This document shows, in pieces, positions 39,348 to 63,888 of a DNA stretch of 64,000 bases. How positions within the stretch are numbered: the stretch's first letter is position 1; the number at the start of each line of letters is the position of its first letter. The DNA is taken from positions 124,001 through 188,000 of the forward strand of contig NZ_QZWD01000002.1 in the NCBI RefSeq assembly GCF_003602005.1, in the 5' to 3' direction. The translations under genes and the position numbers were made by a program. A model generated the notes under the pieces. That model worked only from the letters and a program-made list of their open reading frames with translations, did no database searches and had not been told where the DNA came from. Source of the DNA: Salinisphaera sp. Q1T1-3. GTDB taxonomy: Bacteria; Pseudomonadota; Gammaproteobacteria; Nevskiales; Salinisphaeraceae.

Positions 39348-39977
39348 ATGCCGATTCGCAATCGTTCGCTCGGCGAAGCCGCCGACGAGGAAGCCGCGGG
39401 CGAAAGCTCGGATGAGTCAGTCTCGCCAGTCGAAGACACGGCCGCGCCCGCGGTCGATGAAAGCGCCGGTCTGCCGGACAAGCCGGCGCCGGACGAGGGC
39501 GGAGATGATGATCGGCTGCCCGAGTTGCCGCCCAAGATGCCGGGGGGTGGACGTATTCGGGCGCGCATGGCCGCCGTACAGGCCATCTATCAGTGGCGGA
39601 TGAACGGCAGCGACATCGCCGAACTGATCACACAGTTCGCCCATGCCGGGCGGCTTCGCGATCTGGATCGCGATTATTTCGAAATGCTGTTGCGCGGCGT
39701 GGTTCATGATGTCTCCGGGCTGGAGTCCGCCTTCGACCGGCACTTGTCGCGTCCGGCCGTACAACTCGACCCGGTCGAATACGCCATCCTGCTGCTGGCG
39801 ACTTATGAACTGCGGGAATGCCCGGAGATACCATTCGCGGCCGTGATCAACGAAGCCACGAATCTGGCCAAGATCTTTGGCGCGACCGACGGTCATCGTT
39901 TCGTCAACGGCGTGCTGGATGCGGCAGCCCGCGATCTGCGACCACTGGAAGCAGGACGCAAGCGACCCGGTCGCTAG
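39348..39977 (+). CDS. nusB: Transcription antitermination factor NusB with N-terminal extension
   Basis: 209 residues, against about 140 for typical NusB. The NusB fold begins near residue 64 (GGRIRARMAAVQAIYQWRMNG) and includes DRDYFEMLLRGVVHD, LDPVEYAILLLATYEL and AVINEATNLAKIFGATDGHRFVNGVLDAAAR. The first ~60 residues are acidic, Ser/Pro-rich and probably disordered. ATG 39348 gives the extension; an internal ATG at 39567 would start inside the fold and is unlikely. The stop TAG is the CTAG at the left end of the 300-bp repeat. NusB forms the antitermination complex with NusE on boxA. Confidence 0.94.
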   Translation: MPIRNRSLGEAADEEAAGESSDESVSPVEDTAAPAVDESAGLPDKPAPDEGGDDDRLPELPPKMPGGGRIRARMAAVQAIYQWRMNGSDIAELITQFAHAGRLRDLDRDYFEMLLRGVVHDVSGLESAFDRHLSRPAVQLDPVEYAILLLATYELRECPEIPFAAVINEATNLAKIFGATDGHRFVNGVLDAAARDLRPLEAGRKRPGR

Positions 39978-40272
39978 AGCCTGTTGATGTTTCGTGCGAG
40001 TCCGCGCCAAGCGCGCCCTGAAATTGATGATGGGCGGCAAGACGAGGCGTACACGCGCCGTGCAGCCATTCTGCACCCGTGTGCTGGAACGCTGTATTAC
40101 CGTCTTGTTTTTGATTTCGGGGCGCTTGTCCCTTCGGGTTGGGCCACAACTCACGTCGGGCGGCGTTGCGAGTCTGGATCGTGGCAGGCCACGATCGGCG
40201 ACTCGCGCCTTGCCGGACACGCTGTGGTCTCTCGACGAAAAGTCGCTCGAACGAGACCTCAACAGGCCCTAG
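39974..40272 (-). mobile_element. 300-bp inverted-repeat element, copy A (MITE-like)
   Basis: Non-coding element bounded by CTAG at both ends (39974-39977 and 40269-40272). The left end reads AGCCTGTTGATGTTTCG and the right end is its inverted partner (CTCAACAGGCC). The centre contains the palindrome ATCGTGGC-AG-GCCACGAT and the shared blocks GACGAGGC, GGGACAAG and ATCAAAAAC (read on the minus strand). Orientation is opposite to copies B, C, D and E. The left CTAG contains the nusB TAG stop. No long open frame is present. Confidence 0.82.
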
Positions 40273-47328: not shown

Positions 47329-47707
47329 GCGCTGCATTCGAGCGCTCATCTCGATACAAAGTGAAGGATAGGGCGCTATACTCATGCCCTCGGGATGAGC
47401 GTTTTGCTGCACCGAAACAGGGCGGCAGCGCTAAACCATTGGTCTAAATGACACACTCCTGCCTTGCGATCGGGCCGCGAGTGGTCTAAAAAGACCGGTC
47501 ATACAAGTGTCGACGGCGTATTTGGGAGAAACGTTCGCTGTCGTTTTACTTGGCACGCTATGTGCCTAGCGCATAGCTCTCGGCTCGAGGCGGCTCCTCG
47601 TTTCGACCGATGCAGGGGACCAGCTCGGAAAGGCAAGTTGTGGTCGGTGTCCGCAAAGACCGCGCGCGTCCGTGTTTGGTGATCACACCGTTTTGGGGAT
47701 TACATCG
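47329..47707. other. Upstream region of TonB-dependent receptor 1
   Basis: About 380 bases without a gene. It contains two copies of TGGTCTAAA (described separately) and a TATACT at about 47373-47380. No Fur-box-like sequence was found here, unlike upstream of tonB. Confidence 0.5.
47440..47496. promoter_or_regulatory. Paired TGGTCTAAA sites (candidate operator)
   Basis: TGGTCTAAA occurs at 47440-47448 and 47482-47490, 42 bases apart, or about four helical turns. The second copy is part of a perfect inverted repeat GGTCT-AAAA-AGACC (47483-47496). This resembles a regulator operator, possibly of GntR type, but no regulator is identified. Confidence 0.35.
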
Positions 47708-50629
47708 ATGACAAACTCTTCGACTCCGGCAACGGGGTCCGAGCGGACGCCGTTGGTGGCGGCGTTCAACTGGAAAGGTGCATCCAAGGCTTCCATCTGT
47801 GCCTTCATGCTCGCTTTCGCGCCGTTGACCGCGTCCTGGGCGCAGACGACTGATAGCGCCGATGACGCCGACTACGTTGCGCCGGCCGCCCCGGCCGCGG
47901 ACGACAGCGACGGAGATATCGCGCCGGCCGCGCCGGCAGCAGCTGAACCGGCTGCGCCTGCCGCACCGGCTGCCGCGGCCGCTGCGCCGGCCGCCGCGGC
48001 ATCGACAGGGGCAGCGGCTGCGGTGCCGTCTTCCAGTCAGACGACACAGCTTGGTGATATTGCCGTCACCGGTTCCGCGCTTTCGGGCGCGGACAAGGCC
48101 GATGCGTTGCCGGTCACGAGTTACAGCGCCGACGAACTGCGCGAACAGGGCATCACTTCGACGCCGCAGATTCTGAACCAGATTTCGTCGAGCAGCAGTA
48201 GCTCTGGTCCGGGTCTGAGTACGGGCAGTCAGGTCACCGGCGGCGCGTCCTTTGCCGATCTCCGTGGGCTGGGCCCGAACAAGACGCTGATCCTTCTGAA
48301 CGGTCGCCGACTGGCGACAAACTCGCTGGAAGGTAATGGTGCAGCGACCGACCTGAACACGATTCCGTTCGCGGCCATCGACCATATCGAAGTGCTTCGT
48401 GACAGCGCCTCGGCCCTGTATGGCACGGACGCGATTGGCGGTGTAATCAACTTCATCACCAAGAAGAATCTGCAGGGCGGCGGTGTCGATCTGCAGTACA
48501 CGGCGCCTACCCGCGCCGGCGGCGGTGATAGCCAGACCCTGAGTGCCACCTTCGGCAAGGGCGACCTGAACAAGGATGGCTGGAACGTGCTCGGCACGAT
48601 CAGCTATCAGCGCGCCAGTGCGATTGATGCCAATACCCGTGATTTCGTGACCCCGCTGAACCCCCGAATTCGGTCGACGTCTTCCAACACGTTCCCGGGG
48701 AACTACGCACAGGGCGGCATATTTGCGAATCCGCAGCCGGGTTGCGATACGCCCGGCGCCTTGCCGGATACCATCTTTGGCGGCAGCGGTTCCGGTTCGT
48801 GTCGCGAGAACTACACCGCCCTCGGGGCTCAGGTCCAGCAGCGCTATGATCAACCGTCGTTTTTCGGTGACGCCCAGTACAAGATCAACGATAACAACAA
48901 GGTTGATCTGAGCTATCTGTATTCGAAGAAAACCACATACAGCGTCTCGGCGCCGGCGCCGACGTCCGGTCAGATCTCGGTGCAACCCGGGACGCCCTTT
49001 TACCCGGGCAACGGCATCGTGCCTGCACCGACCGCTGCACAAGGTGGAGCGGATTTCGATCCCAACGACCCCGTGTCGCTCTATTATCGATCCAACCCGC
49101 TCGGTCAGCGCGTCAATCGTAGCGAGAACGAAAACCATCGCGTGGTGCTCAACTTCACCGGTCGTTTCTTGAAGGATTACCACTACGACACGGCGTTCTC
49201 CTATAACCAGAGCTCGACCGATTATTATCTGCAGTCAGGCGAATTCAACCAGTACATCGGCGACGATTCGCTCGAGGACGCGATCAATAACGGGCAATTC
49301 AACCCGTTCGACCCGAATCTGTCGCAGAGCGAACGCGCCGCACTGGCGTCGACCGAGACCACGGGTGATCTCGAGTCCGGGAAAACACGTGCCTATGTGT
49401 GGGATGGCAAGGTGGATCGTGATATTGGCGACTGGTTCGGTGCCGGGCAGTCGGCGCTCGCTTTGGGTGCCCAATATCGACATGAAACGCTCGATGTTTC
49501 GGTTGACTCCTATCTGGCGCCGCGTGCCCCGAGCTCAGGTCTGAGCGCGAATAAGATTTCCGAAGATCGAGACGTTGAAAGCGTGTTCGGTGAGTTGAAC
49601 GTGCCGCTGCCGTTCAACGTCGAACTCGATGCTCAGGGCCGTTACGACAACTACAGCGACGTCGGGGATACACTGAACCCGAAGGTTTCGCTGCGCTGGC
49701 AGCCGATCGACCAGCTCACGCTGCGTGCGTCGTATGCCGAGGGCTTCCATGCGCCGACGTTGTTCGACCTGTATCAGCCGCTTGCGAATACCTACTCCGA
49801 AGGCGGATTGGACGATCCGATTCTATGCCCGGGTGGTACGGCCGACTCCGCCGCCGGCGGCTCGCAGACACGGGACTGTGATACCCAGTTCCAGGAGGCT
49901 CAGGGCGGTAACCAGAATCTGAAGCCGGAGAAATCCAAGAGCTGGAGCGCCGGTTTCGTTCTGACGCCGATCAAGTACGTGACGTTGACGGCCGATTTCT
50001 GGGCCGTCGAATTGTCGCAGCAGATCGGCGTGGCCAGCGGCTCCTACGCGTTGGCGCGCCCGGATCAGTTCCCGGTGACGCGTAACGACGACGGGGCAAT
50101 CGACTATTTCGTCAACCAGAATCAGAATCTGGGCAAGACGCAGACCAACGGCGAGGATATTCAGCTTCAGGCTTATTATCCGAGCGATCTCGGCACGTTC
50201 ACGCTGCAGATGCAGGGCACGTACACCAACAAGTACGACTTCCAGAACGTGAAGGGCGGTCAGTACTACAACAACGTGAGCGAGTTCAGCAGCGCCAGCA
50301 ACCAGGTGATCTTCCGCTGGAAGCACACCGTGACGCTCGGTTGGAACAAGGGCCCGTATGCGTTGGGTGTCGTGAACCATTATTCGAGCGGTTATCGTGA
50401 CTCGACGGTCTATCCGGGCCACTACGGCGTGCACGACTACGTCACCTGGGACACCTACGGCTCGTATCGTTTCGACAACGGCCTGCAGTTCACGGTCGGC
50501 GCTAACAACGTGTTTGACGTCGATCCGGTCTACTCGACGCAGACCTATGCCGGCCAGGCCGGTTATGACGCGCGTTACGCCGACGGCGTCGGTCGGACGG
50601 TCTACGGTCGCCTGAGCTATAAGTTCTAG
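47708..50629 (+). CDS. TonB-dependent receptor 1
   Basis: 973 residues. A long N-terminal region ends in a signal peptide ASICAFMLAFAPLTASWAQ. An Ala/Pro-rich linker of about 75 residues follows, then the TonB-box-like DIAVTGSAL. The plug has ADLRGLGPNKTLILLNGRRL and IEVLRDSASALYGTDAIGGVINFITKK. The 22-strand barrel has FGAGQSALALGAQYRHETL, GRYDNYSDVGDTLNPKVSLRW and FHAPTLFDLY, and the end is GRLSYKF with a terminal Phe. Imports an unknown ligand across the outer membrane. ATG 47708 follows a GGGG site by about 8 bases. Confidence 0.93.
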   Translation: MTNSSTPATGSERTPLVAAFNWKGASKASICAFMLAFAPLTASWAQTTDSADDADYVAPAAPAADDSDGDIAPAAPAAAEPAAPAAPAAAAAAPAAAASTGAAAAVPSSSQTTQLGDIAVTGSALSGADKADALPVTSYSADELREQGITSTPQILNQISSSSSSSGPGLSTGSQVTGGASFADLRGLGPNKTLILLNGRRLATNSLEGNGAATDLNTIPFAAIDHIEVLRDSASALYGTDAIGGVINFITKKNLQGGGVDLQYTAPTRAGGGDSQTLSATFGKGDLNKDGWNVLGTISYQRASAIDANTRDFVTPLNPRIRSTSSNTFPGNYAQGGIFANPQPGCDTPGALPDTIFGGSGSGSCRENYTALGAQVQQRYDQPSFFGDAQYKINDNNKVDLSYLYSKKTTYSVSAPAPTSGQISVQPGTPFYPGNGIVPAPTAAQGGADFDPNDPVSLYYRSNPLGQRVNRSENENHRVVLNFTGRFLKDYHYDTAFSYNQSSTDYYLQSGEFNQYIGDDSLEDAINNGQFNPFDPNLSQSERAALASTETTGDLESGKTRAYVWDGKVDRDIGDWFGAGQSALALGAQYRHETLDVSVDSYLAPRAPSSGLSANKISEDRDVESVFGELNVPLPFNVELDAQGRYDNYSDVGDTLNPKVSLRWQPIDQLTLRASYAEGFHAPTLFDLYQPLANTYSEGGLDDPILCPGGTADSAAGGSQTRDCDTQFQEAQGGNQNLKPEKSKSWSAGFVLTPIKYVTLTADFWAVELSQQIGVASGSYALARPDQFPVTRNDDGAIDYFVNQNQNLGKTQTNGEDIQLQAYYPSDLGTFTLQMQGTYTNKYDFQNVKGGQYYNNVSEFSSASNQVIFRWKHTVTLGWNKGPYALGVVNHYSSGYRDSTVYPGHYGVHDYVTWDTYGSYRFDNGLQFTVGANNVFDVDPVYSTQTYAGQAGYDARYADGVGRTVYGRLSYKF

Positions 50630-50654
50630 TCGACAAGCCTGTCTCCGACCTGAG

Positions 50655-50690
50655 AAAAGCCATCCCCATCCGGGGATGGCTTTTTTTTGG
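50655..50690 (+). terminator. Terminator of receptor 1
   Basis: AAAGCCATCCCC-AT-CGGGGATGGCTTT hairpin (50655-50684) followed by a T run, 25 bases after the stop. Confidence 0.92.
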
Positions 50691-50972
50691 TTCACCGCAA
50701 AGCATCGCGATTATGCCGCTGGATGCAGTCTGGACGTGATTCAGCCGCTTGATCGGGCCGATATTCCTCGGTACTGCGGCACGCCATTCAAGAGTTCGAC
50801 CGGCCCCGCCTGCAATCGTCGGTGTCGTCATTCTTGACGGGGCGCAGTGAGCGCGGCGGTTGCGACCGATCATCGCCCGAGACAAAACCTGTGGTCGGTG
50901 ATATTGCAACGCATACACGGTCTTCGCCTAAAGTTCGATGCCGGATGCGACGCGAGATTTATAAGCTGTTCA
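50691..50972. other. Intergenic region between receptor 1 terminator and copy B
   Basis: About 280 bases. Nothing recognisable beyond short chance frames. The remaining bases to receptor 2 after copy B (51271-51441) should carry its promoter; I cannot place one with confidence. Confidence 0.4.
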
Positions 50973-51270
50973 CTAGGGCGTGTTGAGGTTTCGTTCGAGC
51001 GCCTTTTCGTCGAGAGACCGCCGTGTGTCCGGCAAGGCGCGAGTTGCCGATCGTGGCGTGCCACGATCCAGACTCGCAACGCCGCCGGGCGGGATTTGTG
51101 GCCTAACCTGAAGGGACAAGCGCCCCAAAATCAAGAACACGACGGTAATCCAGCGTTGTAGCCTGCGGGTGCAGCATGGCGGCACGGCGCGCACGACGCC
51201 TCGTCTTGCCGCCCATCGTCAATTTCAGGGCGCGCTTGGCGCGGACTCGCACGAAACCTCAACACGCCCT
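50973..51270 (+). mobile_element. 300-bp inverted-repeat element, copy B
   Basis: Ends are AGGGCGTGTTGAGGTTTCGT (left) and its exact inverse at 51251-51270, so the 20-bp terminal repeats are perfect. The left flank is CTAG, the right is CCTGG, a likely mutated CTAG. The internal palindrome ATCGTGGC-G-TGCCACGAT and blocks GAAGGGACAAG, ATCAAGAACACGACGG and GCCTCGTCTTGCCGCCCATC are shared with the other copies. No coding potential. It lies between receptors 1 and 2. Confidence 0.85.
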
Positions 51271-51441
51271 GGCAAGGCATGCGTTCGCCCAAGCGTTGGG
51301 AGCGATTGGCACGGAACGTGCCTTGTTTTCTATCAGGCGGGCACGTCAGTGTCTGCTTATGGCAGGGGGATGCGCCTGTAGGGGGATCGCGCTCGGCGAT
51401 CGACAGGGCATCTAGACGATTCGCAACGTTTGGGGGAACCA

Positions 51442-54303
51442 TTGACTCATCATGAAACGGGCACGCGTGCAGTGTCCAAGCAACGTCATGCACATTTTGC
51501 GCTGAGATGGGCGAGAACGCCGCAGCTTTCGGCCTGCGCCGCCTTGCTACTGGCTTCTCCTTTCACGATGGCGCTGGCGCAGGATGACGGCGCGAATAGC
51601 CAGGATGATTACGTCGCGCCAGCGGAAGCCGACAGCAGTAACGAGGCTGTGCCGGCGGAACCAGCTGCAGCGGCAGCAGCGCCCGCGGCGGCTTCGGCAC
51701 CGGCTGCTGCTGCATCGACAGGGAGCGCCGCAGCGGCTGTTTCGGCGCCGTCGGGCCAGACAACACAGCTCGGTGATATCGCCGTTACCGGTACTGCAAT
51801 CGCGCGAACGGATGCCGCGACGTCACTGCCGGTGACGGTGGTCACAAAAGAGCAGCTTGACGCCCAGGGGATTACATCCGCCTCCGAAGCGCTTCAGCAA
51901 ATACCGGCCAACAACTCGAGTGCGGGGGAAGGGCTCGGGACCGGATCGCAGATCACAGGCGGTGCAAATTTCGCCGATCTGCGTGGTCTGGGCTCCAAAT
52001 ACACGCTCGTTCTACTCAATGGACGTCGGTTGTCGAATGATGCGTTCAACGGGGGATCCGTTGACGTCAATACAATTCCATTCGCCGCGATCAAGCGTAT
52101 CGAAGTGCTACGCGACGGTGCATCGGCGCTTTACGGTACCGATGCTGTCGCGGGCGTTATCAACTTCATTACTGAGAAGGATCTGCAGGGCGGAAACCTT
52201 ACACTGCAATACGACCAGCCGACGAACAGTGGTGGCGGCACGAAACGCACGCTGGAGGCAACATTCGGTCATGGCGATCTGGACAAGGATGGCTACAACC
52301 TGATGGTGACGGGGAGTTATCGTCGGCAAGACGCGGTCAATGCTCTGGACCGCGATTTCGTTGTCATTCAGGACGAATCAAGAGGCGTCGATGCCACGTC
52401 GAGTTTTCCGGCGCCTGCCAACTATTTCCAAAACGAAACGCCACTATTGAATCCGGCCGGTCCCGATTGCGATCAGCCATTGTTGTATCCGAGTGGGGGA
52501 TCGTCCTGCCGATTCAACTACTCATCTTACGGTAACGTAGTAACGCCGAGCGACCGTGCCTCGATCTACGCGCGAGGCGCATACAAGATCAATGACAATA
52601 ATCAGGTTACATTGTCCTACCTCTTTGCTCATAACGAGAGTCGGAATTTTGCAGCACCAGGTTTGAGCAGCGGACCTTTCTTGGAAATGAGTCCGGACTC
52701 GCCGTATTTTCCTGGCAACGGCATCACACCGGCACCTGGCGCCGATTCGGGCTTTGACCCGACCCAGCCGATTTCGCTGTTCTATCGAAACGTTGCCGGC
52801 GGGGGACGTATTACCAAGAACACGAACGAAGCGCACCGGGCCATGCTCAACTTCACCGGTAGCTTCGAAAAGGTCCATTACGATACGGCCTTCAGTTTTA
52901 ACCAGGGAACGACCGATATTGCTTACGATCACGGCTATTACAATTACGAGGAGTTGGAAAACCTTGTAAATAGCACGGTCAATCCGTTCGTATCGAATGA
53001 CGAGCTGACACAGGCACAGCGTAATGCGGTTCTCGGCACAACCAATAGCGGTGTCGCCGACAGTACCAAGGCACAGGAATATGTCTGGGATGGGAAGCTG
53101 ACGCGGGAGCTAGGGGACTGGTTCGGCGCAGGGCAGCTTGCGATGGCGATCGGCGCCCAATACCGTCATCAGCGCTTGCAGGATACACGGAATAACAGTT
53201 TCCTCACGGATGTGCAGAATTCCGGTGGCGGTCTGAGTCCCCAGGATCCCGTTGACGAAGATCGGGATATCGAAAGTCTGTACAGCGAGGTCAATATCCC
53301 GGTCCTCGACAGCCTCGAACTCAACGGATCATTCCGGTACGACAATTATAGCGACGTCGGTGACACGGTGAACCCGAAGGTTTCGCTGCGCTATCAGCCG
53401 ATCCAGAAAGTCGTATTTCGCGGTTCTTACAGCGAGGGTTTCCGGGCACCGTCGCTCTACGAGCTGTACAACCCGCAATCGACGACATTCACCGGTCCAC
53501 TCGACGATCCGGCATATGATTGCAGCGCGGACAATCCGCCGGTTGGCACCTGTAACTATCAGTTCAACCGTTTGCTCGGTGGCAACCCGGATCTCGACTC
53601 TGAAACGTCGAAAAGCTGGACGGCGGGCCTGATCGTCTCGCCCATTGAACGGCTGTCTGTGGGCGCATCTTTCTGGTGGATCGAGATCGACAACCAGGTC
53701 GGCACGCTGGCGCCCAGTACGATCCTTGATGACCTGGGACAGTTCGGGGATCTGATTACCCGTAATGAGAACGGTCGTATCACTCAGATTTCGACGATCA
53801 ATGAAAACCTTGGCAAGGTTCGCACCAACGGTGTTGATTTCTCGATCAACTATTCGATTCCGACCGATTTCGGTACTTTCGGTTTCGACTTTCAGGGAAC
53901 GCTAACGCACAAATACGCGTTCCAGCCGCGACCAGGCGTGGACTATTCGGAAGCCGTGAATCGTTACGCCGGCAGCGAGGTGATTCCCAAGTGGAAACAC
54001 GAAATACAGTTGACTTGGGTGAAAGAGAACTGGAGCGCGCAGGTCGTCAACAACTTCTCGAGTGGGTATGAGGACGCCGACCCTGACACCAATCCAGAAG
54101 TCAGTGACTACATGACATTTGATGCCTCGGTCGCCTACAAGTTTGATAGCGGTATCGGTCTGAGCGTCGGCTCGAAGAATATCTTCGATCGGGATCCGCC
54201 CTTCAGTAACCAGGCCGATTATGGTTCTGGTGGTGGCTACGATCCCCGTTACGCGGAAGCGATTGGGCGGACGGTCTTTGGCAGGATGACCTATGACTTC
54301 TAA
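51442..54303 (+). CDS. TonB-dependent receptor 2
   Basis: 953 residues, paralogous to receptors 1 and 3. A signal peptide is LSACAALLLASPFTMALAQ. The Ala/Pro linker runs to about residue 100, then DIAVTGTAI, plug motifs ADLRGLGSKYTLVLLNGRRL and IEVLRDGASALYGTDAVAGVINFITEK. The barrel has GSFRYDNYSDVGDTVNPKVSL, FRGSYSEGFRAPSLYELYNPQ and ends GRMTYDF. The start is TTG 51442, 4-5 bases after GGGGGAA; the same layout occurs in receptor 3. Ligand unknown. Confidence 0.92.
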   Translation: MTHHETGTRAVSKQRHAHFALRWARTPQLSACAALLLASPFTMALAQDDGANSQDDYVAPAEADSSNEAVPAEPAAAAAAPAAASAPAAAASTGSAAAAVSAPSGQTTQLGDIAVTGTAIARTDAATSLPVTVVTKEQLDAQGITSASEALQQIPANNSSAGEGLGTGSQITGGANFADLRGLGSKYTLVLLNGRRLSNDAFNGGSVDVNTIPFAAIKRIEVLRDGASALYGTDAVAGVINFITEKDLQGGNLTLQYDQPTNSGGGTKRTLEATFGHGDLDKDGYNLMVTGSYRRQDAVNALDRDFVVIQDESRGVDATSSFPAPANYFQNETPLLNPAGPDCDQPLLYPSGGSSCRFNYSSYGNVVTPSDRASIYARGAYKINDNNQVTLSYLFAHNESRNFAAPGLSSGPFLEMSPDSPYFPGNGITPAPGADSGFDPTQPISLFYRNVAGGGRITKNTNEAHRAMLNFTGSFEKVHYDTAFSFNQGTTDIAYDHGYYNYEELENLVNSTVNPFVSNDELTQAQRNAVLGTTNSGVADSTKAQEYVWDGKLTRELGDWFGAGQLAMAIGAQYRHQRLQDTRNNSFLTDVQNSGGGLSPQDPVDEDRDIESLYSEVNIPVLDSLELNGSFRYDNYSDVGDTVNPKVSLRYQPIQKVVFRGSYSEGFRAPSLYELYNPQSTTFTGPLDDPAYDCSADNPPVGTCNYQFNRLLGGNPDLDSETSKSWTAGLIVSPIERLSVGASFWWIEIDNQVGTLAPSTILDDLGQFGDLITRNENGRITQISTINENLGKVRTNGVDFSINYSIPTDFGTFGFDFQGTLTHKYAFQPRPGVDYSEAVNRYAGSEVIPKWKHEIQLTWVKENWSAQVVNNFSSGYEDADPDTNPEVSDYMTFDASVAYKFDSGIGLSVGSKNIFDRDPPFSNQADYGSGGGYDPRYAEAIGRTVFGRMTYDF

Positions 54304-54325
54304 TCGGCGCTGATTTCGCGTTATC

Positions 54326-54356
54326 AAAGCCACCGGCGCGTCCGGTGGCTTTTTTA
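54326..54356 (+). terminator. Terminator of receptor 2
   Basis: AAGCCACCGG-CGCGT-CCGGTGGCTT stem followed by a T run, about 22 bases after the stop. Confidence 0.9.
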
Positions 54357-54381
54357 TAAATCGACGTTCTTCGCGCTTCGT

Positions 54382-54540
54382 ATTCGATGTCGGCTATGAC
54401 TTAAAAAAACGGCAGCGGTCTGACGTCGGGTTCGAAGAATTTCATTGAGACCGATACGCCCCTGTCGAACCAGACAGTCCGTACGATTCAGCACGATGCC
54501 GATGTCATCGTGGAGTCTCGTTCCTATATCGAACTCTAAC
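54382..54540 (+). pseudogene. 3' remnant of a fourth TonB-dependent receptor
   Basis: The DNA follows the last ~160 bases of receptor 3: TTCGATGTCGGCTATGACTT, then a frameshifting run of seven A, then a stretch encoding LTSGSKNF, ETDTPLSNQT, and a scrambled end EL* in place of KLEYRF*. The 5' part of the gene is absent, so this is a relic of a duplicated receptor. Confidence 0.75.
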
Positions 54541-54548
54541 GAGTCTTT

Positions 54549-54586
54549 CAAAAGCCGCCGGGCATCTTTCCCTGCGGCTTTTTTCG
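54549..54586 (+). terminator. Terminator copy behind the receptor remnant
   Basis: GTCTTTCAAAAGCCGCCGGG...GCGGCTTTTTTCGTTA matches the terminator at 58463-58510 base for base over most of its length, indicating a shared duplicated block. Confidence 0.75.
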
Positions 54587-54589
54587 TTA

Positions 54590-54720
54590 TGGCTCGGTGC
54601 GGCGCCAGGCGGCGGCGAAAAGGGGGCGAGCCCGGACGGGGAGCCGCCAGAACCGAGAGGGCGTGTCGGGAAATCCAAGCGGGCTGAGCCGAGTAAGCCG
54701 ACGGCAAGCCCGCCGCCCTG
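54590..54720 (-). pseudogene. 3' remnant of a PHP phosphoesterase copy
   Basis: GGCTCGGTGCGG near 54593-54604 and CGAGAGGGCGTG..GGAAATCC with CCGAGTAAGCCG parallel 58833-58965, the 3' end of the intact PHP gene. The minus-strand translation includes GLLGSARLDF, cf. GLLGSAGSDF in the intact protein. It completes the duplicated block receptor end - terminator - PHP end. Confidence 0.65.
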
Positions 54721-54837
54721 TGAAAGTCGTTGCTCGATATTGGTGGCTCGACGGAGAGGCTCGGCAACGGCCACGCCAGGCGGTTCATGGGTGAGATAAA
54801 CCACCCCAGGCCGACGACTTACAGCGTGTTCTTCTGA

Positions 54838-54987
54838 CAGATAACCGACATCTCCAAGTTCCTCGACGAACGCCATGCCGAGCACATCGCCGCATCTGGT
54901 GGCAAGGCTTCGATCGATGACCGAGGCCGCCAGACATGGGAGCAGGTACGCCGGAAGGAAGGGTGGTTAATTCAATGTGATCGCTGA
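54838..54987 (+). pseudogene. Protein-like fragment of unknown origin
   Basis: An in-frame stretch following a stop at 54835 reads QITDISKFLDERHAEHI and ends ...RRKEGWLIQCDR*. The composition looks like a natural protein C-terminus, but there is no start codon and no recognised family. Confidence 0.3.
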
Positions 54988-55244
54988 TGTGCGGCACACT
55001 CGCGATGCCTTGATCTTGTCTTGCTTATGGCTCAGCCGCTAGTGAGACACCTCTGGCGCCATTGTCATATCACAGACCTGATAAGGGTGACTTGACAGAT
55101 GTGGCACGAGATGTGCTGGAGATTGTGAGGGCGAAGCCTTGGGGTTAGTGCCCGCCTGTCAAGGGCACGAGGGCTCGCCTGGGGAATCACGAAATGTGAT
55201 CGGCGAGCACGTTCTTGGCGACACGTAATATTGGGGGAAAACCA
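54988..55244. other. Upstream region of receptor 3
   Basis: About 257 bases. TTGACA occurs at 55092-55097 but no matching -10 lies 16-18 bases on. No Fur-like box is visible. The TTG start of receptor 3 is preceded by GGGGGA. Confidence 0.4.
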
Positions 55245-58151
55245 TTGATTGGATATCAGGGGGGAGGGCGTCTCACGCCCCACACGTATGGCGTATATCC
55301 GGATGTGAGTCGTGGATGCTCGTCGTGGAGATATACTTGTATCGCGCTTCTGGCTTTTGCACCGTTCACGATGGCGCTGGCTCAGGATGATACGACCAGC
55401 GACGAGGGTTATGTCGCGCCAGCGGATGCGAGCCGTGACGACGCGCCGATTGCTGCAGCGCCGGCAGAACCCGCCGCCGCTGCGGCACCGGCGGCGGCTA
55501 CTGCGGCGCCCGCGACGGCTGCCGCAGCGAGCACCTCGGGAGGTACGACGGAACTCGATCAGGTGACGGTGACGGGGTCGGCCATCCCGCGCGCCGATGC
55601 AGCGACGGCGTTGCCCGTGACCACCTACAGTGCGGATGAGCTGCGCCAGCAGGGTGTGACGTCCGTGGCGGGCATCATGCAACAAGTCGCAGCGAACTCC
55701 ACTGCTTCAGGGCCGGGGGCCGGTTACGGCTTGTCGATTAACGGCGGGGCGTCCTACGCGGATCTGCGTGGCCTCGGGCCGAACTCGACGTTGATTCTGG
55801 TCAACGGCCGTCGTCTGGCGAACAACGCATTCAATGGCGGGGCGGTATCGCTGGAGAGTATCCCGTTTGCCGCGATTGAGCGCGTTGAGGTGCTGCGCGA
55901 CGGGGCGTCGGCAATTTATGGGACGGATGCTGTGGGTGGTGTAGTCAACTACATCACCAAGAAGAACTTCGACGGGGGCGATTTCGGCCTGACCTATACA
56001 CAGCCGACCCGCAGTGGCGGCGGTACCGACCGGCTGCTCGAAGCGACGTTCGGCAAGGGCAATCTGAACAAGGACGGCTGGAACGTCATGGGCAGTCTGT
56101 CCTATCACAAGCAGGAGCCGATCTCCGCCGGTTCGCGTCAAGGGATCATCAATCCGTACCAGCCGGACGTCGGCATCGATTCGACGGGTCTGTTCACCGT
56201 GCCGTCGAACTATTATCAGAACGTGCTCGATGATGATGGCACGACGATCGGCCGCACGTGGGGGAATCGCGATTATGCAGCGGGTTGCCCCGGCCAATAC
56301 CAGATTCCGTATCCGGGGGAAACCTACTGTGCGTCGAATACGACGCCGTTCTACCAAATACAGCAGGATACGGACGATCTGGGCTTTTTCGGTAACGCGA
56401 GCTACAAGATCACCAACAATCATCTATTGTCGGCAAGCTATATTTATAGCCATAGCGTGGTTTATAGCCAGATCAACCCCTATGGCATCACGGGACTTTT
56501 GCAGCCGGGTACGCCGTTCTATCCGAGCGATAATCCGAATATCGATCCCACGCGACCAGTGCGCGTCGCCTATTTGAACGCCAGTACCGGGCCCCGGGAA
56601 ACACGGAACCTGAACACGGCAAATCGGGTGGTCTTGAACCTGAAAGGTCATTTTGGCAAGACGCATTACGATACCGCTCTGACGTTCAACCAGCAGACCA
56701 CAGCGCTGTCCTATACGCGTGGTTATTTGAACGATCAGGCACTGGACGCCGGGGATCCAGACGATAATACGTACGGGTCCAGCCGTTTCAGTGATGCCAT
56801 GAACTCAGGTCTGATCGATCCGTTTGCACGGGAGCCGAGTCCGGCTGGCCAGCAATACCTGAATGATTTCATCGCGAGCGGGCAGGCCGAAAAGGATCGC
56901 GGCCGCGTTTATATGTGGGATGGCAAGGTGAACCGGACGGTCGGTAACTGGTTCGGCGCCGGCCCGGTCGCGTTCGCGCTGGGTAGCCAGGTCCGACATG
57001 AAGAACTGGCGGTTGAATCGGGGCCAGTGAAGAACGAGGTTGCAGGCGGCGGCCTCAGTCCGACGTCCTTATCGAAGGATAGGACGGTCGAGGGTGTCTT
57101 CGCGGAAGTTAATGTGCCGCTTCTGGATTCTCTGGAGTTCGACGCGGCTGCCCGTTACGACAACTACAGTGACTTCGGGGACACGCTCAATCCCAAGTTT
57201 TCACTGCGGTATCAGCCGTTCAAGCAACTGGTGATCCGAGGGTCCTATAGCGAAGGCTATCAGGCGCCGACGCTCTACAATCTGTATAACCCCGAGCAGA
57301 TCACCTACACGCAGGACGGTCTCAACGACCCACAACTCTGCCCGGGTGGGCAGCCGGCTCCCGGTGCTCTTGAACGAGATGTCTGCAGTACCCAGTTCGA
57401 ACGCCACTACGGCGGCAACGAAGACTTGAAGCCCGCGACATCCGAACAATACAACTTTGGCGTCGTCATTCAGCCGATCGAACAGATTCTGGCGGAAGTC
57501 ACCTACTGGCACATCGTTCTCGACAAGCAGGCGTCGCTGTTGCCGGTCGAGTATCTATTCGATAACTACGGTCAGTACCCGGGCAACATCACCCGCTATG
57601 GCCCGGATTCGGACCAGGCCGGCCAGATCGACTACATCACGACGCCGACGAGCAACCTCGGAACGACCCGCACTGACGGCCTGGATACGCGTCTGCAAGC
57701 AACGCTGAAGACGGCAGCCTACGGTACGTTCGGCGTGCGCTTCGAAGGAACGTATGTGCTGCACCACAAGTACCAGAACGTGCCAGGCGGCGAATTTCAG
57801 GACGATGCCGGGGTGTTCGTCGACAGCGGTCCGACGATCCAGTGGAAGCACAACATCACGGCGTCCTGGCGACGAAACGGGTTTCGGGCCGAGCTGATCA
57901 ATCACTATGTCGGCGGTTACAAGGATCAGTATCCCGACGATCATAAAGACGTGGACGCGTTCATCACGTTCGATGCAGACGTCGGTTATGACTTCAACAA
58001 CGGTGTCAGTCTGACGTTGGGTTCGAAGAACTTCATGGACGCCGATCCGCCCCTGTCGAACCAGACGGATCAGGGCATTCCGGGCTACGACCCGCGTTAT
58101 GCAGATGCCATCGGCCGTACGGTCTACGGCAAGCTGGAGTATCGGTTCTAG
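55245..58151 (+). CDS. TonB-dependent receptor 3
   Basis: 968 residues. The signal peptide is CIALLAFAPFTMALAQ near residues 25-45, followed by an Ala/Pro/Glu-rich linker and QVTVTGSAIPRADAATAL. The plug has ADLRGLGPNSTLILVNGRRL and VEVLRDGASAIYGTDAVGGVVNYITKK. The barrel has ARYDNYSDFGDTLNPKFSL, GSYSEGYQAPTLYNLYNP and ends GKLEYRF. The start TTG 55245 lies 6 bases after GGGGGAAAA, as in receptor 2. The stop TAG forms the CTAG left end of element copy C. Confidence 0.92.
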   Translation: MIGYQGGGRLTPHTYGVYPDVSRGCSSWRYTCIALLAFAPFTMALAQDDTTSDEGYVAPADASRDDAPIAAAPAEPAAAAAPAAATAAPATAAAASTSGGTTELDQVTVTGSAIPRADAATALPVTTYSADELRQQGVTSVAGIMQQVAANSTASGPGAGYGLSINGGASYADLRGLGPNSTLILVNGRRLANNAFNGGAVSLESIPFAAIERVEVLRDGASAIYGTDAVGGVVNYITKKNFDGGDFGLTYTQPTRSGGGTDRLLEATFGKGNLNKDGWNVMGSLSYHKQEPISAGSRQGIINPYQPDVGIDSTGLFTVPSNYYQNVLDDDGTTIGRTWGNRDYAAGCPGQYQIPYPGETYCASNTTPFYQIQQDTDDLGFFGNASYKITNNHLLSASYIYSHSVVYSQINPYGITGLLQPGTPFYPSDNPNIDPTRPVRVAYLNASTGPRETRNLNTANRVVLNLKGHFGKTHYDTALTFNQQTTALSYTRGYLNDQALDAGDPDDNTYGSSRFSDAMNSGLIDPFAREPSPAGQQYLNDFIASGQAEKDRGRVYMWDGKVNRTVGNWFGAGPVAFALGSQVRHEELAVESGPVKNEVAGGGLSPTSLSKDRTVEGVFAEVNVPLLDSLEFDAAARYDNYSDFGDTLNPKFSLRYQPFKQLVIRGSYSEGYQAPTLYNLYNPEQITYTQDGLNDPQLCPGGQPAPGALERDVCSTQFERHYGGNEDLKPATSEQYNFGVVIQPIEQILAEVTYWHIVLDKQASLLPVEYLFDNYGQYPGNITRYGPDSDQAGQIDYITTPTSNLGTTRTDGLDTRLQATLKTAAYGTFGVRFEGTYVLHHKYQNVPGGEFQDDAGVFVDSGPTIQWKHNITASWRRNGFRAELINHYVGGYKDQYPDDHKDVDAFITFDADVGYDFNNGVSLTLGSKNFMDADPPLSNQTDQGIPGYDPRYADAIGRTVYGKLEYRF

Positions 58152-58447
58152 GGCGTGTTGAGGTTTTGTTCGAGCGCCGTTTCGTCGAGAGGCCGCCGTG
58201 TGTCCGGCAAGGCGCGAGTCGCCGTATCGTGGCCTGCCACGATCAAGACTCGCAACGCTGCCGGGCGTGATTTGCGGCCCAACCCGAAGGGACAAGCACC
58301 TCAAAATCAAAAACACGACGGCAATACAGCGTTGTAGCACGCTGGCGCAGAACGACACGCTATGCGTGCTATGCCTCGTCTTGCCGCCCATCGTCAATTT
58401 CAGGGCGCACTTGGCGCGGACTCGCACGACACATCAACAGGCCCTAG
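58148..58447 (+). mobile_element. 300-bp inverted-repeat element, copy C
   Basis: Bounded by CTAG at 58148-58151 and 58444-58447. The left end is GGCGTGTTGAGGTTTTGT and the right end CATCAACAGGCC. The internal palindrome is ATCGTGGC-C-TGCCACGAT. It separates the receptor 3 stop from the terminator at 58463; the uninserted counterpart is at 54537-54549. Confidence 0.87.
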
Positions 58448-58462
58448 GCCGGGACCGTAACG

Positions 58463-58510
58463 GGTCTTTCAAAAGCCGCCGGACATGCGTCCCGGCGGCT
58501 TTTTTCGTTA
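58463..58510 (+). terminator. Terminator of receptor 3, displaced by copy C
   Basis: AAAAGCCGCCGG-GACATGCGT-CCCGGCGGCTTTTTT hairpin with T run. It is about 310 bases from the stop because copy C lies between. Copy D follows at once. Confidence 0.88.
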
Positions 58511-58830
58511 GGGCCTGTTGATGTTTCGTTCGAATGCCGCGTTGGTGTCTGTAAATCGCGCCCTGCGAGAGGCCGATCGCGGCGTGCTCCGATCCAGACA
58601 GAGTGGCAACGCGTCAGGGGGGATTACCAGGGCAGCCATGGTCGATTATCCATGGGCGGCTGTGGCCCAACCGTTCGAGACAAGCGCCCCAAAATCAAAA
58701 ATACGACGGCAAACCAGCGTTCCAGCACGCTTGCCCCAATGACACGCTATGCGCGCTGCGCCTCGTTTGGCCGCCCATCGTCAACTTCGGGGCGCACTTG
58801 GCGCGGACTCGCGCGAAACGTCAACAGACC
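58511..58830 (+). mobile_element. 320-bp inverted-repeat element, copy D (diverged)
   Basis: Left end GGGCCTGTTGATGTTTCGTTCG after TTA, right end CGTCAACAGACC before TCA. Internal blocks GACAAGCGCCCCAAAATCAAAAA and GCCGCCCATCGTCAACTTC are shared, but the palindrome is degraded (GATCGCGGCG-TGCTCCGATC) and about 20 extra bases are present. The PHP gene's TGA stop lies at the right boundary. Confidence 0.8.
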
Positions 58831-59664
58831 TCAAGGCTCGGTGCGGAACCAGGCGACAGGTGAAACGGCGGTCGGCAGCGCGCGAAGCCGGCCGGGTACC
58901 AGCCAGAACTGAGAGGGCGCGTGGAAATCCGATCCGGCCGAACCGAGCAGGCCGGTGGCACGTGCATCCTGAGCGGCCTGGCGTTCCTGTTGCGTGTCCG
59001 TCACCCCGGTCACGATTTCCAGCGCGTCGCCGCGGCCTGCGGCAAAGGCATGGATGGCGCGGCGGCGCCAAGCATGTGTGAAGCCGTAGCCAAAGGGGTG
59101 GGCGAGTACAGCCTGGCCGCCGGCGGCATGGATGGCGTCGATGGCATCCTGCATGGCGAGCCAGTTGGCACGGACGTGGCCGGGGCGTCCCATGCGCAGA
59201 TAGCGCTTAAAGGCATCGCCCATATTGCGTGCCAGACCGGCTTCGACGAGCAATCGCGCGAAATGGGCGCGCGTGATCTGCCCGCCGTCGGCAAGCTGTT
59301 CGGCCCGTTCGGTCGCCTCCGCAAGCCCGGCCCGTGCGAGCCGTTGCCCGATTTCGGTGGCGCGACGGGTACGCTCGACGCCGAGTTCGGCAATGGCTGC
59401 GCCGAGCTGTGTATGGGTGGGATCGACCCCGAGTCCGACGATATGCAGCGTGCGTCCCTGCCAGGCGACCGACATTTCCAGCCCATCGACGAAGGCCATG
59501 CCGTGCGCTTCGGCGGCTCGGCGTGCCTCGGGCAAACCCTGCACGGTGTCGTGGTCCGTGAGCGCAACGCGCTCGACGCCGCGCGCGGCGACGTAGGCCA
59601 TCAAATCCGCGGGTGAGAGGGCACCGTCGGAGGCCGTGGAATGCATGTGCAGATCGACGATCAT
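58831..59664 (-). CDS. PHP-domain phosphoesterase (YciV/RNase AM type)
   Basis: 277 residues on the minus strand. Metal-binding PHP motifs are DLHMHSTASDG (residues 4-14), VALTDHDTVQGL (~35-46), DGLEMSV, HIVGLGVDP and the C-terminal SAGSDFHAPSQFWLVPG. Related proteins are 3',5'-nucleoside bisphosphate phosphatases and 5'-3' exonucleases that trim rRNA. Its last codons and stop touch element copy D. A decayed copy of its 3' end is found near 54590-54720. Confidence 0.9.
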   Translation of the reverse strand: MIVDLHMHSTASDGALSPADLMAYVAARGVERVALTDHDTVQGLPEARRAAEAHGMAFVDGLEMSVAWQGRTLHIVGLGVDPTHTQLGAAIAELGVERTRRATEIGQRLARAGLAEATERAEQLADGGQITRAHFARLLVEAGLARNMGDAFKRYLRMGRPGHVRANWLAMQDAIDAIHAAGGQAVLAHPFGYGFTHAWRRRAIHAFAAGRGDALEIVTGVTDTQQERQAAQDARATGLLGSAGSDFHAPSQFWLVPGRLRALPTAVSPVAWFRTEP

Positions 59665-59736
59665 GAGCTTGTTGCTCGGGCTGGGGGCCGCTGTATGGTA
59701 GCGACTTGATGATCATCAGCGAGCGACGGGTCGTTC

Positions 59737-61217: not shown

Positions 61218-61380
61218 CTAGTGTTTCGTGCGAGCGCTTTCGTCGAGCGTCGGCCTTGCGTCCGACGAGGTGCCATTCTGCGTCGTGGCGCGCCACGATC
61301 CAGACGCGGCAACGCCGTAGAGAACCCACTGTCCATTTCAGGAAGCCTCTGGCGCGCACGCGTATGAAACATCAAGGGCG
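61218..61380 (+). mobile_element. Shortened inverted-repeat element, copy E
   Basis: Begins CTAGTGTTTCGTGCGAGCGC, lacking the GGGCCTGTTGA end, and finishes GTATGAAACATCAAGGGCG. The palindrome GTCGTGGCG-CGCCACGAT and CAGACGCGGCAACGCC block are retained, but the GGGACAAG-to-GCCTCGTC middle part is missing. About 160 bases; an internal deletion derivative. Confidence 0.6.
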
Positions 61381-62597: not shown

Positions 62598-62734
62598 GAC
62601 TGGCTCGTTGATTGAGAAACCGTGTCAATGTGCCGGCTTTATCGGTTCGGGTTCAACGGCGAGTTCTTATGCGATGCCTCGAAGCCGTGGCATGTGACGT
62701 ATCATAGCGACCAGACACCGTGCATTTTCGACCC

Positions 62735-63850
62735 ATGCCGTTGCTCTTTCGTGCCACAACGACCGCGCGTCGGCTTGCCGAGCGCGCCCCGCGATTGCTG
62801 CGTGAGCCGCCGGAATGGCAGACCGGTCTGATTCCGATGGACGAGGCCGCGCCGTTCGACGTGATTCACCGGCGTGCCGGGGCGACGTTGCGTCATTACC
62901 CCAAACCGAGCGACATGCCGCAGCCGGCGGCCGCGCCGCGTACGCCGGTGGTGCTCGTGCCCCCGTTGTCAGTGCATGTCGGGGTCTACGATCTGTCGCG
63001 CGAGCGCAGCATGGTCAGTTATCTGCAGGCGCGCGGCTTCGATGTCTATCTCGTCGACTGGGGACGGGCGAGTCGAGCCGACGACCGACGCCGCCTGGCC
63101 GACTATTTCGCCGGGTTGTTGCCGGAGATGCTCAATCGTGTTCGCGTGCACAGCGGGCGCAAGCGCTTGAGCCTGCACGGCTGGGGCGGCGGCGGCCACT
63201 TCGCGCTGTGTCATGCGGCGATGAGCGCGCCGGATGCGATCGCCAACCTCGTGCTGGTCGCGACCCCGATCGACTATCACCACAGCGGCGCGCTGGGCGC
63301 CCGGGTAAGGCGCATGGCCGCGCGTGGTCGTCGTCTGCGCGAGGCCACCGGGCTCGTGTTCGGGCGCATGCCCCCGGTGCTCCTGCATGCCCCGGGCTGG
63401 ATGAGCGAGCTGGCGTTGCGCTGGGGCCCGCGCGACGGACCGGCCGACGGCGATGATGCGGCATACGCCGAAGAAACCGCTCTGCGATTGCGCGCGACCG
63501 GCGTTCAGAGTCACGACGGTGCGGCGGCTTATCCGGGCGGCTTTGTCGCCGATGTCATCGATCATCTCTGGATCGACAACGCGCTGGCTGCCGGCCGCTT
63601 GCCCCTACGCGGCAGCCGGGTAGGGCTGGAAAACGTCCGGGTGCCGATTCTCGTGGTGACCGGTCAGCGGGATCAGCAGGCCACCCCGGCGGCCACACGG
63701 GCCCTGGCCGATGTCGTGTCCAGCCGCGATCTCAGCTTCCTCGATATCGATGCCGGCCACGTCGGCGCGTTGACCGGCGAAGCCGCTGCGCGCGAGAGCT
63801 GGCCGCGCATCGCGGACTGGCTGTGCGCACATGATCGGCCGAGGCGCTAG
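62735..63850 (+). CDS. PHA-synthase-like alpha/beta hydrolase lacking the nucleophile
   Basis: 371 residues with PhaC-like features: VVLVPPLSVHVGVYDL, MVSYLQARGFDVYLVDWG, then LHGWGGGGHFALCHAAM, NLVLVATPIDYH and a C-terminal PILVVTGQRDQQ (Asp) and DAGHVGALTG (His). In PHA synthases the segment is G-x-C-x-G; here the middle residue is Gly (codon 63185-63187). No polymer synthase activity is therefore expected by the usual mechanism. ATG 62735 is chosen; GTG 62720 is an alternative. The stop TAG forms the CTAG of the isolated element end. Confidence 0.8.
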   Translation: MPLLFRATTTARRLAERAPRLLREPPEWQTGLIPMDEAAPFDVIHRRAGATLRHYPKPSDMPQPAAAPRTPVVLVPPLSVHVGVYDLSRERSMVSYLQARGFDVYLVDWGRASRADDRRRLADYFAGLLPEMLNRVRVHSGRKRLSLHGWGGGGHFALCHAAMSAPDAIANLVLVATPIDYHHSGALGARVRRMAARGRRLREATGLVFGRMPPVLLHAPGWMSELALRWGPRDGPADGDDAAYAEETALRLRATGVQSHDGAAAYPGGFVADVIDHLWIDNALAAGRLPLRGSRVGLENVRVPILVVTGQRDQQATPAATRALADVVSSRDLSFLDIDAGHVGALTGEAAARESWPRIADWLCAHDRPRR

Positions 63851-63863
63851 GGCCTGTTGATGT
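63847..63863 (+). repeat. Isolated end of the inverted-repeat family, copy F
   Basis: CTAGGGCCTGTTGATG at 63847-63862 matches the left end of the 300-bp family, but the sequence after it is unrelated. It again starts at a TAG stop codon. Confidence 0.6.
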
Positions 63864-63867
63864 CTCC

Positions 63868-63888
63868 TGCGCGTTCGCGCGCATTTTT
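63868..63888 (+). terminator. UUCG-loop terminator after the hydrolase gene
   Basis: TGCGCG-TTCG-CGCGCA stem-loop followed by five T, 18 bases after the stop codon. Confidence 0.75.

Follow-up and report, generated by a model that had tools for sequence, protein, structure and literature searches.

A MITE family often placed on stop codons in Salinisphaera and a decayed, element-free duplicate of one of its insertion loci

The receptor-PHP locus and its decayed duplicate

Analysis of the window, by which we mean the whole 64-kb stretch of Salinisphaera sp. Q1T1-3 DNA, revealed three tandem TonB-dependent receptor genes at 47672-58151, which are 41-47% identical to each other. The last of them (55215-58151, plus strand), an intact ORF with Pfam Plug and barrel domains, is followed by a 294-bp repeat, copy C (58151-58444, plus strand), which lies between TA 58149-58150 and TA 58445-58446. 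A terminator-like inverted repeat (AAAAGCCGCCGG...GGCGGCTTTTTT, 58458-58508) separates C from a 321-bp repeat, copy D (58511-58831, plus strand), which lies between TA 58509-58510 and CA 58832-58833; this CA is taken as a mutated TA. The inverted repeat was read from the sequence and the repeat listing, and the hairpin at 58458-58508 was absent from the list of an automatic terminator scan. On the minus strand, a PHP phosphoesterase gene (58831-59664, ORF, PF02811) completes the block; its product reached 286.4 bits against NF047791 RNase RNM, under the cut-off of 375.

C and D had been predicted to sit exactly at the two junctions of this block, between receptor stop and terminator and between terminator and PHP gene, and the junction letters confirmed both positions. 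They coincide with the junctions because both insertions lie on stop codons, C on that of the receptor gene and D on that of the PHP gene, a point that had escaped the original prediction. The TAG stop of the receptor gene (58149-58151) consists of the TA target and the first G of C, and the TGA stop of the PHP gene (TCA on the plus strand, 58831-58833) of the last base of D and two flanking bases. Although the right TA of D has changed to CA, the PHP codon is still a stop.

Further members of the same repeat family were observed elsewhere in the window. A minus-strand copy at 39977-40269 forms with its end the TAG stop (39975-39977) of the gene 39369-39977, and a plus-strand end at 63848-63880, whose partner end was not recognised, forms the TAG stop of an alpha/beta-hydrolase gene (62720-63850). 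Copy A (50976-51269, 294 bp, plus strand) is intergenic and off stop codons; it had no match in a plasmid collection. At 61223-61317 lies a decayed piece of the family, 76-80% identical to its first 110 bases. A search with Rfam at the gathering threshold found only four tRNAs within the window.

Upstream of the intact receptor gene, a second copy of the receptor 3' end, terminator and PHP gene, decayed and free of elements, occupies 54365-54954 and is collinear with 57958-59613. The block had been predicted to occur twice, with its decayed version at 54382-54720. Pairwise alignment of 54350-54800 with 57930-59700 gave collinear matches, with homology outside the terminator as well, while the decayed copy proved to extend beyond the predicted limits. 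The receptor 3' ends of the two blocks are 81% identical over 112 columns (BLAST, E 3e-22), the terminators 88% over 57 bp (E 4e-14) and the PHP 3' ends 73% over 128 columns (E 3e-16); in addition, 54704-54797 matches the inner part of the PHP gene (68% over 106 columns, E 2e-9).

The decayed TonB-dependent receptor 3' end (54365-54536, plus strand; 54365-54475 from BLAST, the remainder from a pairwise alignment with element-free flanks) has no intact frame and is a paralogue of the receptor 55215-58151, which it matches best (63% over 27 residues, residues 929-955, tblastn). It is followed by the terminator-like inverted repeat of the decayed block (54537-54593), uninserted on both sides and 88% identical to 58458-58514. 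Of the decayed PHP gene (54590-54954, minus strand, from alignment and tblastn), the 3' end and pieces of the 5' half are left and the middle is missing. The tblastn pieces correspond to PHP residues 250-277, 61-97 and 18-111, and those of residues 18-111 reach as far as 54954 (E about 1e-4). No element copy was found in the decayed block. Homology and the absence of elements bear out the prediction that this is a segmental duplication in decay which offers natural uninserted sites for both elements, and the block provides a natural comparison with and without elements.

The locus was also inspected in a related genome, which we take to be that of S. hydrothermalis. Its receptor-PHP junction is a second element-free site, to be read with the caution that the sole receptor there is orthologous to the first receptor of the window (75%), compared with 46% to the receptor beside C. 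In S. hydrothermalis a single receptor gene precedes those for PHP, a phospholipase-D-like protein and an aldo/keto reductase. The window has this order too, with three receptors instead of one and the decayed block in addition; the array therefore either grew here or shrank there. An insertion upstream of the S. hydrothermalis receptor was compared with window sequence free of elements, and this alignment was too diverged for a reading of the target.

The MITE family, its target and a related insertion sequence

The 300-bp repeats constitute a MITE family with a high copy number. They are short, carry no transposase, have terminal inverted repeats (consensus of the inverted ends TA-GGGCCTGTTGATGTTTCG) and occur in many dispersed copies. 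TA flanks, degenerate at many ends, are accompanied by empty sites in the paralogous block and at the element-free junction of the relative, and the ends match those of an autonomous element, as described below. A one-end pattern search of the 3.87-Mb genome (59 contigs) yielded 279 MITE ends (135 forward and 144 reverse), and the reversed control pattern yielded 0 sites in the same genome. The fetched stretches contained 84 copies with paired, inverted ends, 100-321 bp long, lengths of 308-310 bp (28 copies) and 293-295 bp (18 copies) being commonest; 37 single ends, among them genuine copies in which one end has diverged, were excluded from the counts. The own-genome copies are a non-random draw, consisting of 40 scored matches and most of the first 100 of the 279 ends, and the S. 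hydrothermalis sample covers 40 regions around the first-listed of 178 ends. A search of 41 genomes with a 299-bp copy gave matches in 17: 14 of 14 in the genus (own genome included), one of the three further genomes of the family and two of the 24 further genomes of the order.

In the copies from relatives, the variable letters of one end mostly agreed with those of the other (columns 13-14). This fits matched recognition by one transposase, although folding would also give it. In an alignment of 27 copies from relatives and 12 own copies (alignment A1), a small hairpin at columns ~185-200 comes in two forms with the loop flipped, CCCGAAGGG and CCCTTCGGG, depending on the copy, and a longer stem at columns ~200-330 has been exchanged, in some copies on both sides at once and in others on a single side. 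Two MITEs in the own genome (G000:C2, L197 903-1481) lie end to end with apparently one common TA, an arrangement that insertion of one into the TA duplicated by the other would produce. A 622-bp element of a relative (G009:C61, L070 1079-1700) shares the ends and resembles the MITE in its outer parts, with an extra interior.

The target is read as TA within CTAG/YTAR, with duplication of the 2-bp TA. A 3-base TNA duplication, proposed originally from the flanks of D, was rejected, as left and right flanks have only TA in common: the left is mostly CTA followed by GGG, and the right is CCC followed by mostly TAG. C is flanked by CTA and TAG; D has TTA on its left and the changed TA on its right, and across copies the flank variants TTA, ATA, CCA, TAA, TAT, TGG and CAG were observed. 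The G after the left TA and the C before the right TA persist in the majority of copies, also in those with a changed outer letter, and because these neighbours of the TA are conserved while the outer letters vary, TA would be the duplicated unit. This agrees with published values for the IS427 group, in which 2-bp repeats are given for 10 of 11 listed elements (PMC3281130) and ISPsp10 is reported with TA duplicated at a TAA (PMC4133298). CTAG occurs 29 times in the window, compared with 74 expected from dinucleotides and 39 expected from trinucleotides.

An 860-bp element with the same ends as the MITE lies in the same genome (C58:85631-86490) and contains one 267-aa frame. Its transposase matches NF033580 (248.6 bits, cut-off 110), PF13340 and PF01609, and it shares 91-93% identity with three S. 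hydrothermalis C41B8 loci. The similarity between MITE and IS is confined to terminal repeats of about 20 bp at both ends. In its IS5-family transposase with a DDE domain, terminal repeats of about 20 bp and 2-bp TA duplication (CTA...TAG flanks), the element resembles the IS427 group of IS5 (IS1248, ISPsp10; PMC3281130, PMC4133298); its 860 bp compare with 832-865 bp in these sources and fall in the group's range of about 830-870 bp. It differs in that two overlapping frames with a frameshift are usual in the group (PMC3281130), whereas a single frame is found here. For this reason we call it IS427-like and do not file it as a settled IS427 member; ISPha1 is reported as the same single-frame exception (PMC3281130). 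Judging from the ends, this IS5-family, IS427-like element is the likely driver of the MITEs, and it would differ from the IS427 group in driving a high-copy MITE. Relatives of the transposase, full-length or partial, were detected in eight of the 14 genus genomes, while the same search found none in the other six and the MITE is present in all 14. The stop of murI carries the 860-bp IS here (G000:C58:84807-86490) and a MITE in S. hydrothermalis (G005:C5), so the same site was struck twice.

Docking on stop codons

Among the 79 own-genome copies counted, 33 bear a neighbouring gene's stop at one end or, in two cases, at both, and 46 are off stop codons. No called gene enters an element in another frame in this count, for which genes were called with a codon model trained on 31 frames of the window and five of the 84 copies were left out for short flanks. 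With a looser end pattern (five of 85 own copies and two of 34 S. hydrothermalis copies left out), 31 of 80 copies are on stops and two called genes enter elements in another frame. Frames that are open and coding-like over 60 codons up to the junction were then sorted by register: in the own genome 34 are in register with the stop and 2 and 4 are not (binomial p 2e-11). Of the S. hydrothermalis copies, 13 of 32 are on a stop and two genes enter elements in another frame; the frames at the junction are 13 in register vs 3 and 1 (binomial p 3e-4). IS copies found via the transposase, mostly from other genera, showed no register effect (4, 4, and 2 frames; 61 ends, with one short-flank end and two duplicates dropped), and docking therefore stands, for the present, as a trait of Salinisphaera MITEs that two species show.

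Unoccupied non-coding sites outside elements, in the window and the fetched flanks, gave the background. Stops make up 14 of 44 CTAG sites, 8 of 89 other YTAR sites (8 stop, 81 not) and 17 of 715 other TA sites (17 stop, 698 not). Docking exceeds the background of all YTAR sites, CTAG included (33/79 vs 22/133, p 8e-5), and its excess over the CTAG background alone is not significant (33/79 vs 14/44, p 0.33). We conclude that CTAG/YTAR targeting, together with the TAG rebuilt from TA and G, accounts for most of the docking.

For five docked genes, all 49 orthologues end -5 to +8 residues from the docked stop, counted without gaps. They comprise 12 relatives for the hydrolase, 12 for the 39369 gene, 11 for murI (two loci from one genome), 13 for PHP and one for the receptor; one of the 14 genomes (G004) yielded no locus and was left out. 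These relatives mostly have TGA or TAA stops with no element there, and an element at the stop was found in one of the 49, the murI of S. hydrothermalis with its MITE. As all orthologues end within 8 residues, the docked stops are native.

Proposed explanation, alternatives and known systems

Tandem duplication and decay, combined with MITEs at CTAG/YTAR stops that rebuild TAG, is the best explanation of these data, and we consider it very probable. The receptor-PHP unit would have been duplicated in tandem and its upstream copy would have decayed, while two MITEs would have entered the other copy, one at the receptor stop and one at the PHP stop. The IS427-like transposase most likely moves the MITEs, inserting them at the TA within CTAG/YTAR and duplicating this TA. 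Since each terminal repeat starts with G, the duplicated TA plus G gives TAG, and insertion into a TAG or TAA stop would rebuild a stop at the same codon on either gene strand. Such insertions would leave the protein unchanged and survive selection, and with CTAG scarce inside genes, stop codons would fill with copies. Mobilisation by the 860-bp IS, the order of events and the role of selection are the parts of this explanation that we infer. A target and ends that preserve the stop codon entered would be a simple, testable reason for the high abundance of the family in a compact genome, and annotated stop codons in such genomes would partly be made of mobile DNA.

Docking might go further and represent a safe-harbour strategy, in which G-starting ends, TA duplication and the CTAG/YTAR target are joined by a preference for stops beyond the CTAG background, via the transposase or via a factor coupled to translation termination; this idea we regard as doubtful. 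If it is true, a pyrimidine followed by TAA or TAG would be a neutral landing site, and the MITE could reach hundreds of ends with the genes unharmed. As an explanation of the docking counts, active stop-codon preference beyond the CTAG preference, exerted by the transposase or a translation-linked host factor, is slightly less credible still. Of the copies with intact CTA...TAG flanks, 15 of 28 are on stops compared with the 14 of 44 unoccupied CTAG sites, but p is 0.09 and the related IS copies are without the effect.

A role of the repeats in the 3' UTR, as functional RNA elements (stabilisers, attenuators or processing sites) that selection for the RNA maintains behind stop codons, is also unlikely. 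Folding speaks for such a role: C has fold z-scores of -4.0 and -3.9 on its two strands, and the inner helices covary, with 34 double-change cells vs a shuffle mean of 13.9 and 0 of 500 shuffles reaching 34, kinship being ignored; the MITE ends gave 53 double changes vs 18.6 in shuffles, likewise with kinship ignored. However, these shuffles are uncorrected for relatedness, more than half of the 79 copies are off stops, and the family shows the hallmarks of a mobile element in its terminal repeats, TA flanks and empty sites. With 17 copies facing one way relative to the docked gene, 18 the other way and one unoriented, orientation is random, which argues against a strand-specific mRNA role and weakens the 3'-UTR reading.

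While a paralogue cannot separate never-inserted from precisely excised sites, a decayed block that once carried elements and lost both by precise excision is very improbable, as two precise losses would be required and the S. hydrothermalis receptor-PHP junction is likewise element-free. That elements strike genes anywhere, their end TAG just truncating the genes entered in one frame, would be in line with the TAG that each intact end offers in one frame and with the few genes running into elements in other frames, but it is extremely improbable and was rejected, being contradicted by the orthologue ends of the five genes tested and by junction frames of 34 in register vs 6.

As a MITE, the family is new but of a known type, and the novel aspect is its habitual placement on stop codons; such a habit was not found in a limited check of 5.39 million open-licence papers. 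MITEPsy1 of Pseudomonas syringae is likewise a MITE with IS5-like ends and a target of CTAG or YTAA, but it has 100 nt, a 4-nt duplication and six copies, and the available text of its description mentions no stop-codon docking (PMC3189936). RUP of pneumococcus and Correia/NEMIS of Neisseria are also short, with terminal inverted repeats and TA ends, mainly intergenic and with folded transcripts; RUP differs in being tied to an IS630 element, and for neither is stop-codon docking described in the available text (PMC2229807). In Pseudomonas oleovorans (L106 1018-1281), a 264-bp stretch with similar inverted ends was observed near a related IS and is possibly a sister MITE.
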